From: Candidatus Polarisedimenticolaceae bacterium
Lineage (GTDB): Bacteria > Acidobacteriota > Polarisedimenticolia > Polarisedimenticolales > DASRJG01
DNA length: 64,000 nt
NCBI GenBank assembly: GCA_036275915.1
Contig: DASUCV010000004.1
Location: 265,238-329,237 of the forward strand
Reading direction: 5' to 3'
The translations under genes and the position numbers were made by a program. The notes beneath the pieces are model-generated. The model worked only from the letters and a program-made list of their open reading frames with translations. It ran no database searches and was not told where the DNA came from. The number at the start of each line of letters is the position of its first letter. Position 1 is the first letter of the stretch. This document shows positions 40,380 through 44,745 of this stretch, piece after piece.

Positions 40380-43300
40380 CTACTTGAACAGCTTCAGGAT
40401 GACGAGCAGGAACTCCTGCTTGCCCTCGAGCTCCGGGATGTCCGACCACATCGCGCGGCCGTAGCTCGCCTGCCAGATCGTCATCCAGGGGCCGACCACG
40501 TTGAACGACAGTCCCATGCCCGTGTGGTTCCTGAACGGCTCGTCCAGCACGCCGTCCCGCACGTGGGCCGACTCCAGCGAAAGATCGAACCGGATGACGT
40601 TGAAGAGATTGAACGCCCACGCGAGGCGGCCGATGTACCCTTCGTCGAACCGCACGCCCGTGCCCGAGTAGCCGTCGAGCTTCGTGTCGCCGAAGAAGTC
40701 GAACTGGTACTCGCTGAACCGGTCGAGGTTGTTGCCGCCGAGGTAGTCGACCTCGCCGCGGATCTTCTGGAAGTGCGGGAGGTACCACTCCTTGAACGCG
40801 GTCGCGCCCCACGTCGTGAAATTCGCCTGGCCCGGATCGAACGTCGAGCCGACGAACTGCTGGGTCGCCGGATCGTAGAGCCCCCACGGCTGCCAGTCCG
40901 ACCGGTGCGAGTACGAGCCCCGCCCCGTGATCGAGTACCCCTTCTTGTTGAACTCGACCTGGAAGGTGCCGGTGTAGAGCTCGTGGTTCGACGGGAGCAC
41001 GAACGCGAGGTTCGACGCGGCGAGCGCGTCGTCGGCGTCGGAGCTGTCGGTGTACTGGTTCCAGGCGATGTCGGCGATCGCCGTGAGCTTGACGAAGGTG
41101 CCGAGCGGGTGGCCGAGACGGCCGGTGAGGTACTGGCTGCGCCGGCGGACCCGTTGCTTCACGTCCTCGACGCCCGCGACGTAATACTTCTCGTCGAGCT
41201 TGAGCGCGACGAGCGACGCTTCCGCCCCGAGGTCGAACTTCGATTTGCCGATCGCAGGATCGGTGAGGTTCGCGAACGTGTAGACCCCCGCAAAGAAGAT
41301 ATTGAACTGCACGTTCTTCTTGAGGAAGTCGTAGTCGAACCAGTTCACCCCGGCGAGCGGCACGACGCCGTTGATCGCGTTGTCCTTGAACGCGCCGCCC
41401 GCGAGGAAGAGCTGGCTCGTGTCCATCGTCGCCTTGACCGCGCGTCCACCGGTCTGGTCTTTCTCGAGGTAGCGGAACCCTTCGTTCGTATCGCGCAGCA
41501 TCTGGTGCTCGGAGGCATAGGCGGCCTTGACCGCGGCGTCGAAGTCGTCTTGCGACGGGTTGATCTGGAACCCATCGAACCGGACCTCGCGGCGGACGAC
41601 GAAGTTGCGCCCGCCGGCGGTCCAGAGCTGCTGCCCGTCCGCCTTCGCGAGCATCCGGTAGACGAATCCGTCCGGTGCCGTGATCGGCAGGTAATCGTCG
41701 CTCTCGTCGTTCGAGACGACCGGCGGCTCGAGGTTCGTCTGGACGACGGACACCTTGAGGCGGACGAACGTCTCCTTGTCGATCCAGACGCGCCCGCGGT
41801 AGAGGCTCTTGCCGGTCTTTCCCGACGCCGGCTCGAACGCGAGGACGTAGGCCGCGCGCCCCTGGGCCGTGTCCTCTCCGGCCAGCTTGTAGTCGTAGGT
41901 CTTGTCGAGCGTGAGGTCGAGCGGAAGGGTGACGACCTTCTCGGGCTGGATGAGCGGCAGCTCCGGGATCTTCTTCCACGTGACGAGGTTGCCGTTCACG
42001 TAGTACTTCGTCTGCTCCCATTCGAGATCGCCGCCGCGGTGCCAGAAGTAGTTGCTCTCGATCGAGACGTCGAGCGACGAGCCGCCCTGCGCGAACTTGA
42101 AGTGGAAATCGATGTGGCCCTTCGCCATCCACCGGTCGAGCTTGTCGTCCTGGACCTTCTGCACCTGCTGGTGGTGGGCGATGATCTCCGCCGCCGTCAG
42201 GCCGCGTGTCCCCGCGACGCGGACGTCCGTCGGCGCGGCCTCGATGCCGGTCTCCCCCGCCGCGGCGCGGTCCCATGCGACGACCATCGGATGATCGGCG
42301 AGCACGATGCGTAGCGCCTTCGCCTTCTCGTTCGGCACCGCGGCCGGCCCGGTCTTGAGGGTTCCACCCGTCACGAGATCGACGACACGCGGGTCCTTGA
42401 CGTCGATCGTATCGAGGAGCAGTCGCGCCTGAGCTTCCGGCGCTCCCGTGAGCGGCGCTTCATACACGACGGTGGTCGCGAGATCCTTCGTGTGCAGGAA
42501 TCGGCCGAGGATCGCCGCACCCGGCGACTCTCCTCCTTCGGGTGCCCGAAGCCCCAGCCGACCGGGCGGCGCCGGCGTGTAGCCGGGCGCGAGCATCGCC
42601 TGCAGAGCGGTCGCCGCCGTGACGAGATGATCGCTCTCGGGCGACGGCGGCGGGAGCACGACGAGAGCCGTTCCGACCGACGCGGCGAGCGCTCGGACGG
42701 CGTCGTCGAACGCGCTCCACGGCGCGCCTTCCCGCGGCGCCACGTACACCGCGAGCGCCACCGCCGGCGGGTGCTCGACGACGAGCGCGACGAACGGCGC
42801 CACGGCGGAGGCGGCGTCGCCCCCGGCATCGAGGAGCACTGGAAGGGACTCGATGTACGGGGCCGCATCGTTGTCGAGGAGCGACTTCTCCCAAGCCGCC
42901 GCATCGGAGCCGACGGCACCCTGCGCGACGCGCACCTCGGCGCCGTGGGCTTTGCCCTCGGCCTTGACCGCGAGGGCGGACGACTTGAGGACGAAGGCGT
43001 AGGCCGCGGGATCGAAGGCGCGATCCGGCCGCTCGCCGATCTCGACCGCGAAGAGCTTGCCGCCGAACGTCGCGACCGCCGAGCGCAGGAGCGCCGTCCA
43101 GGCCTGCATCCAGGCGCCGTCGGGAACGGCCTCCGGCCCCGACTCGCGCGGGTGGAGCGTGGTCTCGCCGCGGACGCATAGCGTGATGCGAACGCCGCGG
43201 CCGGCGAGCGCGTCGATCGGGGCCGCGACCGTCGACCAATCGTAAGTCCCGGCGGAGGTCTCGACGCTCGACCAATCCGCCGCGAGGCGCACGTCGATTG

Positions 43301-43463
43301 GGTAGCGGGGATCGCGCGCGGCGAGCGCGGCCGGGACCTCGCCGCCGTCGAGAACGAGCCCGAGCGAGGGGCCGCGCGCTTCGATCTCTTCGTCTTGTTG
43401 GGCCGCCGCGATCGGGGCGCCGAGAATCGCGATCGCGACGAGGACGCCCGCGAGGGCACGCAT
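40380..43463 (-). CDS. Secreted fusion: glycosidase-like barrel, LolA-like region and C-terminal beta-barrel
   Basis: 1027 residues, signal peptide 1-21 ([20 protein letters not shown]). Residues ~30-400 look like a TIM-barrel of the GH clan-A type: [19 protein letters not shown] with [15 protein letters not shown], and EIGERPD (141-147) at the position of the WNEP acid/base motif. Residues ~420-630 resemble LolA/outer-membrane lipoprotein-sorting regions ([41 protein letters not shown]). Residues ~690-1027 are alternating aromatic strands consistent with an outer-membrane barrel (for example [33 protein letters not shown]). ATG 43463 has AGGAGAT 7 nt upstream. Domain boundaries are estimates; no enzymatic activity is proven and a pseudo-glycosidase is possible. 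Confidence 0.75.
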
Positions 43464-43565
43464 CGAGGATCTCCTGCCGCGGCGAGCCCTCATCCAGCGC
43501 AGCGGTCGCACGATTGTTCGTCAGCACGGCGAGCGTGTCAATCCGACGATGCCGGCCACGCATGC

Positions 43566-43571
43566 TATAAC
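43566..43571 (+). promoter_or_regulatory. Putative -10 box for the thiolase operon
   Basis: TATAAC lies 19 nt upstream of GTG 43591 in the divergent region with the fusion gene; GAGG at 43580-43583 is a weak ribosome site. No convincing -35. Confidence 0.35.
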
Positions 43572-43590
43572 GACCGGCCGAGGTTTTCGT

Positions 43591-44745
43591 GTGAGAGACG
43601 ATGTGGTGATCGCGGCGCCCGTACGGACGCCGATCGGACGTTTCGGCGGTGCCCTCGCGTCGCTCTCGGCCGTCGATCTCGGTGTCGCTGCCGCGAAAGC
43701 GGCGCTCGAGCGCGCGGGCATCGCCGGTGAGCGCGTCGGACAAGCGATCTTCGGACACGCGCGTCAGGCGGGGTGCGGCCCGAACCCTGCGCGCCAGGTC
43801 GCGGTGCGCGCCGGCATTCCCGTCGAGAAGCCGGCGTTCACGATCAATCAAGCCTGCCTGTCGGGGATGCAGGCGATCCTCGCCGCGGTGCGCGCGATCC
43901 GCACCGAAGAGGCAAAGGTCGTCCTCGCCGGCGGCTTCGAGTCGATGAGCCGCGTTCCTTACGTTCTCGACGCCCGCTTCGGGTACCGCATGGGCCACAA
44001 GGAGGCGGTCGACCTCATGGCGCGCGACGGATTCCTCGACCCGCTCTCCGGAAAGATCATGGGCGAGACCGCCGAGACGCTCGCCCGGCAGTACGGGATC
44101 ACGCGTGAGGAGCAAGATGCGTACGCGGCGCTCTCGCAGCAGCGGTGCGAGGCCGCGCGCAAGGCGGGCGCCTTCGATGCGGAGATCGTTCCCGTGAAGG
44201 ATGTCCTCGCGGACGAGCACCCGCGGGACGGCGTCACCGCGTCGTCGCTCGCCGGGCTGAAGCCGGTCTTCGAGAAAGACGGCACCGTGACCGCAGGCAA
44301 CTCGAGCGGGATCACCGACGGCGCTGCCGCCATGATCGTCCTCACCGCCGAAGCCGCCGAGCGCCTCCACGTCGAGCCGCTCGCGCGCATCGCCGGCTGG
44401 CGCGTCGACGGCGTCGCGCCCGAGATCATGGGGATCGGACCGGTACCGGCGGTCCGGAATCTCCTCGAAGCGAAGGGCCTCGCGCAGGGCGCGATCGATC
44501 TCGTCGAGCTGAACGAGGCGTTCGCAGCTCAGGTGCTCGCCGTCGATCGCGATCTCGGCTTCGATCGCGACACGCTCAACGTGAACGGTGGCGCGATCGC
44601 GCTCGGTCATCCGATCGGGTGCTCCGGGGCGCGGATCGTCGTGACGCTGCTCCACGAGATGGCGAAGCGGAAGGCGCGACGCGGGCTCGCGACGCTTTGC
44701 GTGTCGGGTGGGATGGGCGGCGCGCTGCTCCTGGAGCGCCCATGA
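43591..44745 (+). CDS. Acetyl-CoA C-acetyltransferase (thiolase)
   Basis: 384 residues from GTG 43591; an in-frame ATG at 43549 would add 14 residues and cross the -10 box. Condensing/cleaving thiolase with nucleophilic Cys89 ([10 protein letters not shown]), His340 ([10 protein letters not shown]) and Cys370 (CVSGGMGG). [11 protein letters not shown] at the N-terminus is typical of AtoB/PhaA-like enzymes. Overlaps the enoyl-CoA hydratase start by 4 nt. Direction (synthesis or degradation) is not decided by sequence. Confidence 0.93.

Follow-up and report, generated by a model that had tools for sequence, protein, structure and literature searches.

A glycosidase-like, LolA-type, and Omp85-like fusion protein of Acidobacteriota, a candidate for lipid delivery to the outer membrane

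The gene and its product

The window, i.e., the whole 64-kb stretch of DNA analyzed here, contains on its minus strand an open reading frame that runs from an ATG at 43463 to a stop codon at 40380-40382 and encodes a protein of 1027 aa (P0001). The gene, the parts of its product, and the two flanking genes are located as follows.

40380..43463, minus strand: gene of the three-domain protein P0001, supported by its ORF, homologues, and an AlphaFold2 model
43401..43463, minus strand: signal peptide, residues 1-21, with cleavage after AAA-21 inferred by eye
42564..43376, minus strand: PslG/GH39-related TIM barrel, residues 30-300, from a fold search and profile matches to PslG
43023..43037, minus strand: GERPD, residues 143-147, at the end of strand beta-4, with R145 in the acid/base Glu column
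42258..42563, minus strand: beta-sandwich that follows the TIM barrel, residues 301-402, from the model and a fold search
41484..42209, minus strand: LolA/RseB-type domain, residues 419-660, from Pfam, a domain model, and fold searches
40383..41483, minus strand: Omp85-like barrel with its lead-in, residues 661-1027 (16 strands, 683-1025), from the model, a fold search, and hhalign
40644..40730, minus strand: strand 11-12 loop, residues 912-940, at the position of Omp85 loop L6
38928..40379, plus strand: hldE-like gene, convergent with the P0001 gene (context, outside the system)
43549..44745, plus strand: thiolase gene, divergent from the P0001 gene (context, outside the system)

The earlier note on this DNA had described a signal peptide together with GTYDWS and GERPD motifs, all of which can be read directly in the translation (GTYDWS at residues 72-77). 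It had also proposed the order glycosidase-like region, LolA-like region, outer-membrane barrel. From the N to the C terminus, an AlphaFold2 model built with 41 homologues as input (pLDDT 88.6, pTM 0.82) predicts a signal peptide, a TIM barrel, a beta-sandwich, a LolA-like domain, and a barrel of 16 strands. The boundaries are residues 30-402 for the TIM barrel plus sandwich, 419-660 for the LolA-type domain, and 683-1025 for the 16-strand barrel, and there is a low-pLDDT linker at residues 15-28. Structure prediction and fold searches of the segments gave neither one family from end to end nor a last third without a barrel, and the proposed order is upheld by the model, the fold searches, and the profile searches alike. 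P0001 is almost certainly a secreted outer-membrane protein composed of a TIM barrel with its sandwich, a LolA-type domain, and an Omp85-like barrel.

Conservation in the homologue alignment peaks in the LolA and barrel parts (mean top-residue shares of 53% and 47%, respectively) and is lowest in the TIM barrel (33%) and the sandwich (32%). An NCBIfam search and a phmmer search against the PDB with the single P0001 sequence gave nothing useful, and no Rfam family or tRNA was detected in the window.

The domains and their relatives

A GH39-type TIM barrel plus beta-sandwich was recovered at the N terminus both by structure and by sequence. Structures of GH39, GH30, and PslG proteins match residues 27-400 with VIA Z scores of 25-27 (26.7 for the GH39 structure 5jvk and 25 for PslG); Foldseek matched the model to PslG (E = 2e-11), and two profile searches with the N-terminal domain found PslG by sequence with E values of 5e-6 and 4e-10. 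In the profile alignment, the N-E-P of PslG falls on a D-x-P of the P0001 family, and E165, which is one of the two catalytic residues of PslG, the other being E276 (PMC11912335, PMC6813494), aligns with R145. P0001 reads E141-I-G-E144-R145-P146 here. GERPD lies at the end of strand beta-4, but the acid/base column is occupied by R145 and not by E144, and the acid/base Glu of N-E-P is missing from the window protein. The earlier note had proposed to check the conservation of E144 and of any second glutamate. Just 5 of the 41 homologues have Glu in the acid/base column, and the alignments, in which the nucleophile column is not fixed by a residue-level superposition, show no conserved Glu after strand beta-7 (236-241). 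The residues that are conserved in the domain are K160, Y203, and D/E205.

In several lineages the N-terminal part is reduced, so that some 200-330 residues precede the LolA-like domain; such shortened forms were seen at L089:4992-7529, L090, and L138-L144. A strongly divergent member at L092:2033-5380 has an extra N-terminal stretch that appears STN/secretin-like by eye and on which Pfam reports nothing.

Judging from the alignments, the N-terminal domain is a degenerate glycosidase fold and probably a binding module, R145 and the weak conservation agreeing better with binding or scaffolding than with catalysis. Of the sugar-sensing or sugar-releasing device suggested previously, the releasing part is not supported in view of R145, the scarcity of Glu at its column, the lack of a conserved Glu after strand beta-7, and the shrinking of the domain, while sugar sensing or sugar binding is possible.

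Modelled alone, residues 419-660 reach a pLDDT of 90 and adopt the open beta-barrel LolA fold, matching LolA-superfamily structures that include DUF1329 (4z48), 3bk5, MucB/RseB, LolA3, and LolB; the best Z score is 11 (3bk5, 4z48, LolA3). The LolA-superfamily Pfam cut-offs are not reached in the window protein (22.4 bits for PF17131, under the cut-off of 30). At E values up to 0.1, LolA_like (PF17131) matches 34 of the 41 members and MucB_RseB matches 23. DUF5686 gave weak matches in six members, mostly on the LolA-like part where these were inspected.

For the C-terminal barrel, Foldseek returned BamA (E = 1.4e-9) and TamA (E = 8e-8), and in the predicted structure the barrel residues superpose on BamA, CdiB, and FhaC with VIA Z scores of 21-23. 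As an independent test at the sequence level, Omp85 proteins of 17 related genomes were aligned, and the parts of P0001 were compared with the resulting profile by hhalign. The barrel matched Acidobacteriota BamA over 261 colinear columns (probability 91.6%, E = 8e-7); the controls, namely the LolA and TIM parts against the same profile, gave probabilities of about 0. In this alignment, the near-invariant stretch LDRFSxYxFGFFG...GF falls on the L6 region of BamA; within residues 912-940 of P0001, LDRFS is near-invariant. At the VRG[F/Y] site, G931 is invariant or nearly so, residue 932 is F, Y, I, or V, and residue 930 is H, R, S, or D (LDGY in the window), the Arg of the Omp85 motif being mostly replaced in the family. 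Many other barrel residues are invariant as well. None of the 41 members matches Pfam Omp85 (PF01103), and the model contains no POTRA domains, the periplasmic part folding as the TIM barrel, the beta-sandwich, and the LolA-type domain. As modelled, the barrel is Omp85-like in fold, and the profile match indicates that it is probably Omp85 by descent.

To our knowledge, no protein with this domain order has been described. P0001 represents a new architecture with an Omp85-like barrel and is to be classified neither with BamA or TamA nor with the active GH39 enzymes. The Omp85-like identity of the barrel and the lipid-biosynthesis operon described below are additions to the earlier reading of the locus.

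Distribution and gene neighborhoods

The search for homologues with the same order was successful. Full-length relatives (about 950-1050 aa), some of them contig-end fragments, are present in 40 of 60 related genomes, and 52 loci of named genomes, nearly all from Acidobacteriota, carry relatives, the nearest being those of strain Mor1 and “Candidatus Polarisedimenticola.” Because of these relatives, a chance ORF can be dismissed, and an acidobacterium is the most likely source of the window. Some match to the family profile was obtained in 119 of 197 genomes drawn from Acidobacteriota, but in many cases the match is local and short and lies in a LolA-like or glycosidase protein; by our reading of the table, long matches across the LolA and barrel parts occur in roughly 70 of the 197. 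The family is phylum-wide in Acidobacteriota. The genome of the window also encodes two LolA and two Omp85 proteins. On its contig C15 (L181:3046-6611), an FtsX/MacB-type permease frame lies beside or overlaps a LolA_like (PF17131) frame, an arrangement that recalls Borrelia BBJ26-28.

In the window, the P0001 gene is monocistronic and directly abuts the convergent hldE, behind which gmhA and an acyltransferase gene are found. No shared operon and no stable co-directional partner were found among the close relatives in the window's own clade; the recurrent neighbors there, all convergent or divergent, are AcpS-, LpxH-, DUF4388-, and SAM-hydroxide-adenosyltransferase-like genes (by eye) and an acyltransferase gene (by sequence match). 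An MlaE permease gene and the acyltransferase-gmhA-hldE group, both related to envelope lipids or LPS, lie near the P0001 gene (36363-40379) and do not form one operon with it.

A different setting is found in Vicinamibacterales, where the long-type family member is part of a co-directional series, KS1-SDR-ACP-deacetylase-P0001 homologue-PHP-KS2. The operon from KS1 to KS2 is complete or nearly so in all 11 long-type Vicinamibacterales loci taken: KS2 and a polysaccharide deacetylase flank the family member in 11 of 11, ACP is present in 10, and a reductase stands beside the first ketosynthase in 8, some gaps being contig ends. An MMPL/RND gene is close by in 7 of the 11. The same operon occurs at L062, L069, L072, and L078 of the named genomes, so that the operon loci comprise L126-L136 and these four; since L126 duplicates L069 and L128 duplicates L062, there are 13 separate loci. 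The RND/MMPL protein resembles HpnN, and the SDR resembles FabG and the flexirubin protein FlxB. The deacetylase is an XrtA-type polysaccharide deacetylase, and the PHP gene encodes a hydrolase. This aryl-polyene-like cluster of two ketosynthases, FabG, ACP, deacetylase, PHP, and HpnN-like RND protein is apparently undescribed.

In the tree, the operon loci belong to one clade with full support (100/100), to which the operon is confined. None of the operon genes were found in the 3.7 kb available upstream at L068, which lies inside this clade, or at eight other loci of the same order (L137-L144). In a sister group, the genes flanking an Acidobacteriaceae family member (L073:474-12187) encode an MMPL exporter, an SDR, and a radical SAM enzyme. 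The radical SAM enzyme carries an HMPTM-type zinc ribbon and is of a type that includes tetraether-lipid synthases.

Proposed role and comparison with known systems

The family most likely acts in lipid export, at the point where the route reaches the outer membrane. We consider P0001 an outer-membrane acceptor or inserter for an acyl lipid or glycolipid, with a probability of about 0.5. An inner-membrane exporter, such as the HpnN-like RND protein in Vicinamibacterales, would deliver a special acyl lipid or glycolipid, whose acyl chains the LolA-like domain would shield. The pseudo-glycosidase domain would hold the sugar head or a carrier, and the Omp85-like barrel would allow the lipid to enter or cross the outer membrane. 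From the anatomy of the protein and its gene neighborhood we infer lipid as the cargo, glycan binding, and lateral insertion; the glycan part is plausible because a polysaccharide deacetylase neighbors the family member in the operon. By homology, the window's clade may share the same kind of cargo. Weighing against lipid delivery are the restriction of the operon to one clade, its absence from the 3.7 kb upstream at L068, and the monocistronic gene of the window, as well as the mostly replaced Arg of VRG[F/Y] and the unmatched Pfam Omp85 family. Another specialized task is also conceivable, because the genome holds further LolA and Omp85 proteins.

How special lipids such as polyenes, hopanoid-like lipids, and glycolipids travel from the periplasm into the outer membrane is largely unexplained, and nearly all that is known of the Omp85 barrel concerns protein traffic. 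Acidobacteria are abundant in many soils, and their envelope has hardly been studied. Combining a lipid-carrier fold with an Omp85-type barrel and encoded in a lipid-making operon in Vicinamibacterales, the family is a direct candidate for an Omp85-based lipid inserter. It is tempting, if rather speculative, to extend this to a phylum-wide, single-protein glycolipid inserter or translocon in Acidobacteriota, in which the Omp85 fold would serve lipid instead of protein traffic by uniting head-group recognition by a pseudo-glycosidase, LolA-like shielding of acyl chains, and an Omp85-type lateral gate.

The strongest alternative, which we nevertheless regard as unlikely, is an Omp85-type factor for protein assembly or translocation, whose LolA-like domain would replace POTRA and receive a lipoprotein or unfolded outer-membrane protein, the barrel then inserting this client or bringing it to the surface. 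Omp85 barrels of known function act on proteins (PMC4104836), LolA and LolB carry lipoproteins, and the POTRA-less BBJ25, which is found beside a LolA-like protein, has been proposed to handle lipoproteins (PMC13078400). However, what the operon supplies is not a protein substrate but ACP, FAS-like enzymes, and an HpnN-like RND protein, other Omp85 proteins, including BamA-like ones, are encoded in the genome, and the glycosidase-derived domain would have no obvious part.

A device for polysaccharide export or trimming, similar to PgaB-PgaA or the Psl system, seems improbable. Its N-terminal domain would bind or cut a polymer that the barrel releases, in keeping with the deacetylase, encoded immediately before the family member in the operon and nearby at L038 and L039, and with PslG, the closest solved relative of the domain and a participant in exopolysaccharide production (PMC6813494). 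Yet the catalytic Glu is lost, no polymer synthase was recognized among the annotated neighbors, and conservation is strongest in the LolA-like domain. We also know of no Omp85-like barrel that serves as a polysaccharide pore.

More improbable still is a sensor of envelope stress or sugar, with an RseB-like domain reading lipid or sugar signals: the MucB_RseB matches speak for it, but the annotated neighbors include no sigma factor, anti-sigma factor, or kinase, and the many invariant residues of the barrel exceed the needs of a mere anchor. An active glycosidase displayed on the barrel was set aside as highly improbable, since the few members that keep the acid/base-column Glu (for example L038 and L040, with E-P) are outweighed by R145 in the window, the poorly conserved site, and the lack of a conserved Glu after strand beta-7.

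Lipid delivery, our preferred reading, can be set against several known systems. PslG of Pseudomonas aeruginosa, a GH39 endoglycosidase, shares the fold of residues 27-400, and its sequence kinship (E = 4e-10) covers the first half of the TIM barrel. In contrast to PslG, which is a stand-alone active enzyme with E165 and E276 (PMC11912335, PMC6813494), P0001 has Arg in the acid/base column and no visible nucleophile Glu and is fused to LolA-like and barrel parts. The LolA/LolB/RseB superfamily (PF17131, PF03888; 3bk5, 4z48) matches residues 419-660 in fold and locally in sequence; whereas LolA, LolB, and RseB are free or lipid anchored, the domain of P0001 is fused to a TIM barrel on one side and to an outer-membrane barrel on the other.

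With BamA, TamA, and FhaC of the Omp85-TpsB superfamily, P0001 shares the 16-strand barrel and the long loop between strands 11 and 12, the profile match to BamA being colinear, but it differs in lacking POTRA domains, a Pfam Omp85 match, and, mostly, the VRG[F/Y] Arg. Heinz and Lithgow described ten Omp85/TpsB architectures in 2014 (PMC4104836), and a word search of their text found neither LolA nor glycosidase. A literature search for Omp85 fusions with a glycosidase or LolA domain, whose reach excluded most subscription papers and all preprints, led to nothing beyond BBJ25, which is not such a fusion. The closest published parallel found is Borrelia BBJ23-29, in which the POTRA-less Omp85 barrel BBJ25 adjoins a LolA-like protein (PMC13078400); there, unlike in P0001, the genes are separate and include a MacB/LolCDE-type ABC transporter, and there is no TIM barrel.

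The setting in Vicinamibacterales is shared with the aryl-polyene clusters of E. coli, which likewise combine KS, KR, ACP, an RND exporter (ApeM), and LolA-type domains, and in which ApeM together with the LolA-like ApeL and the LolB-like ApeN is proposed to move lipid to the outer membrane (PMC8253772). ApeL and ApeN are separate proteins with neither an Omp85 barrel nor a glycosidase-like domain. In the Vicinamibacterales cluster, by contrast, the sole LolA-type part recognized is that of the P0001 homologue itself, where it is fused to an Omp85-like barrel; an outer-membrane acceptor or inserter for the lipid of the cluster would be the simplest reading.
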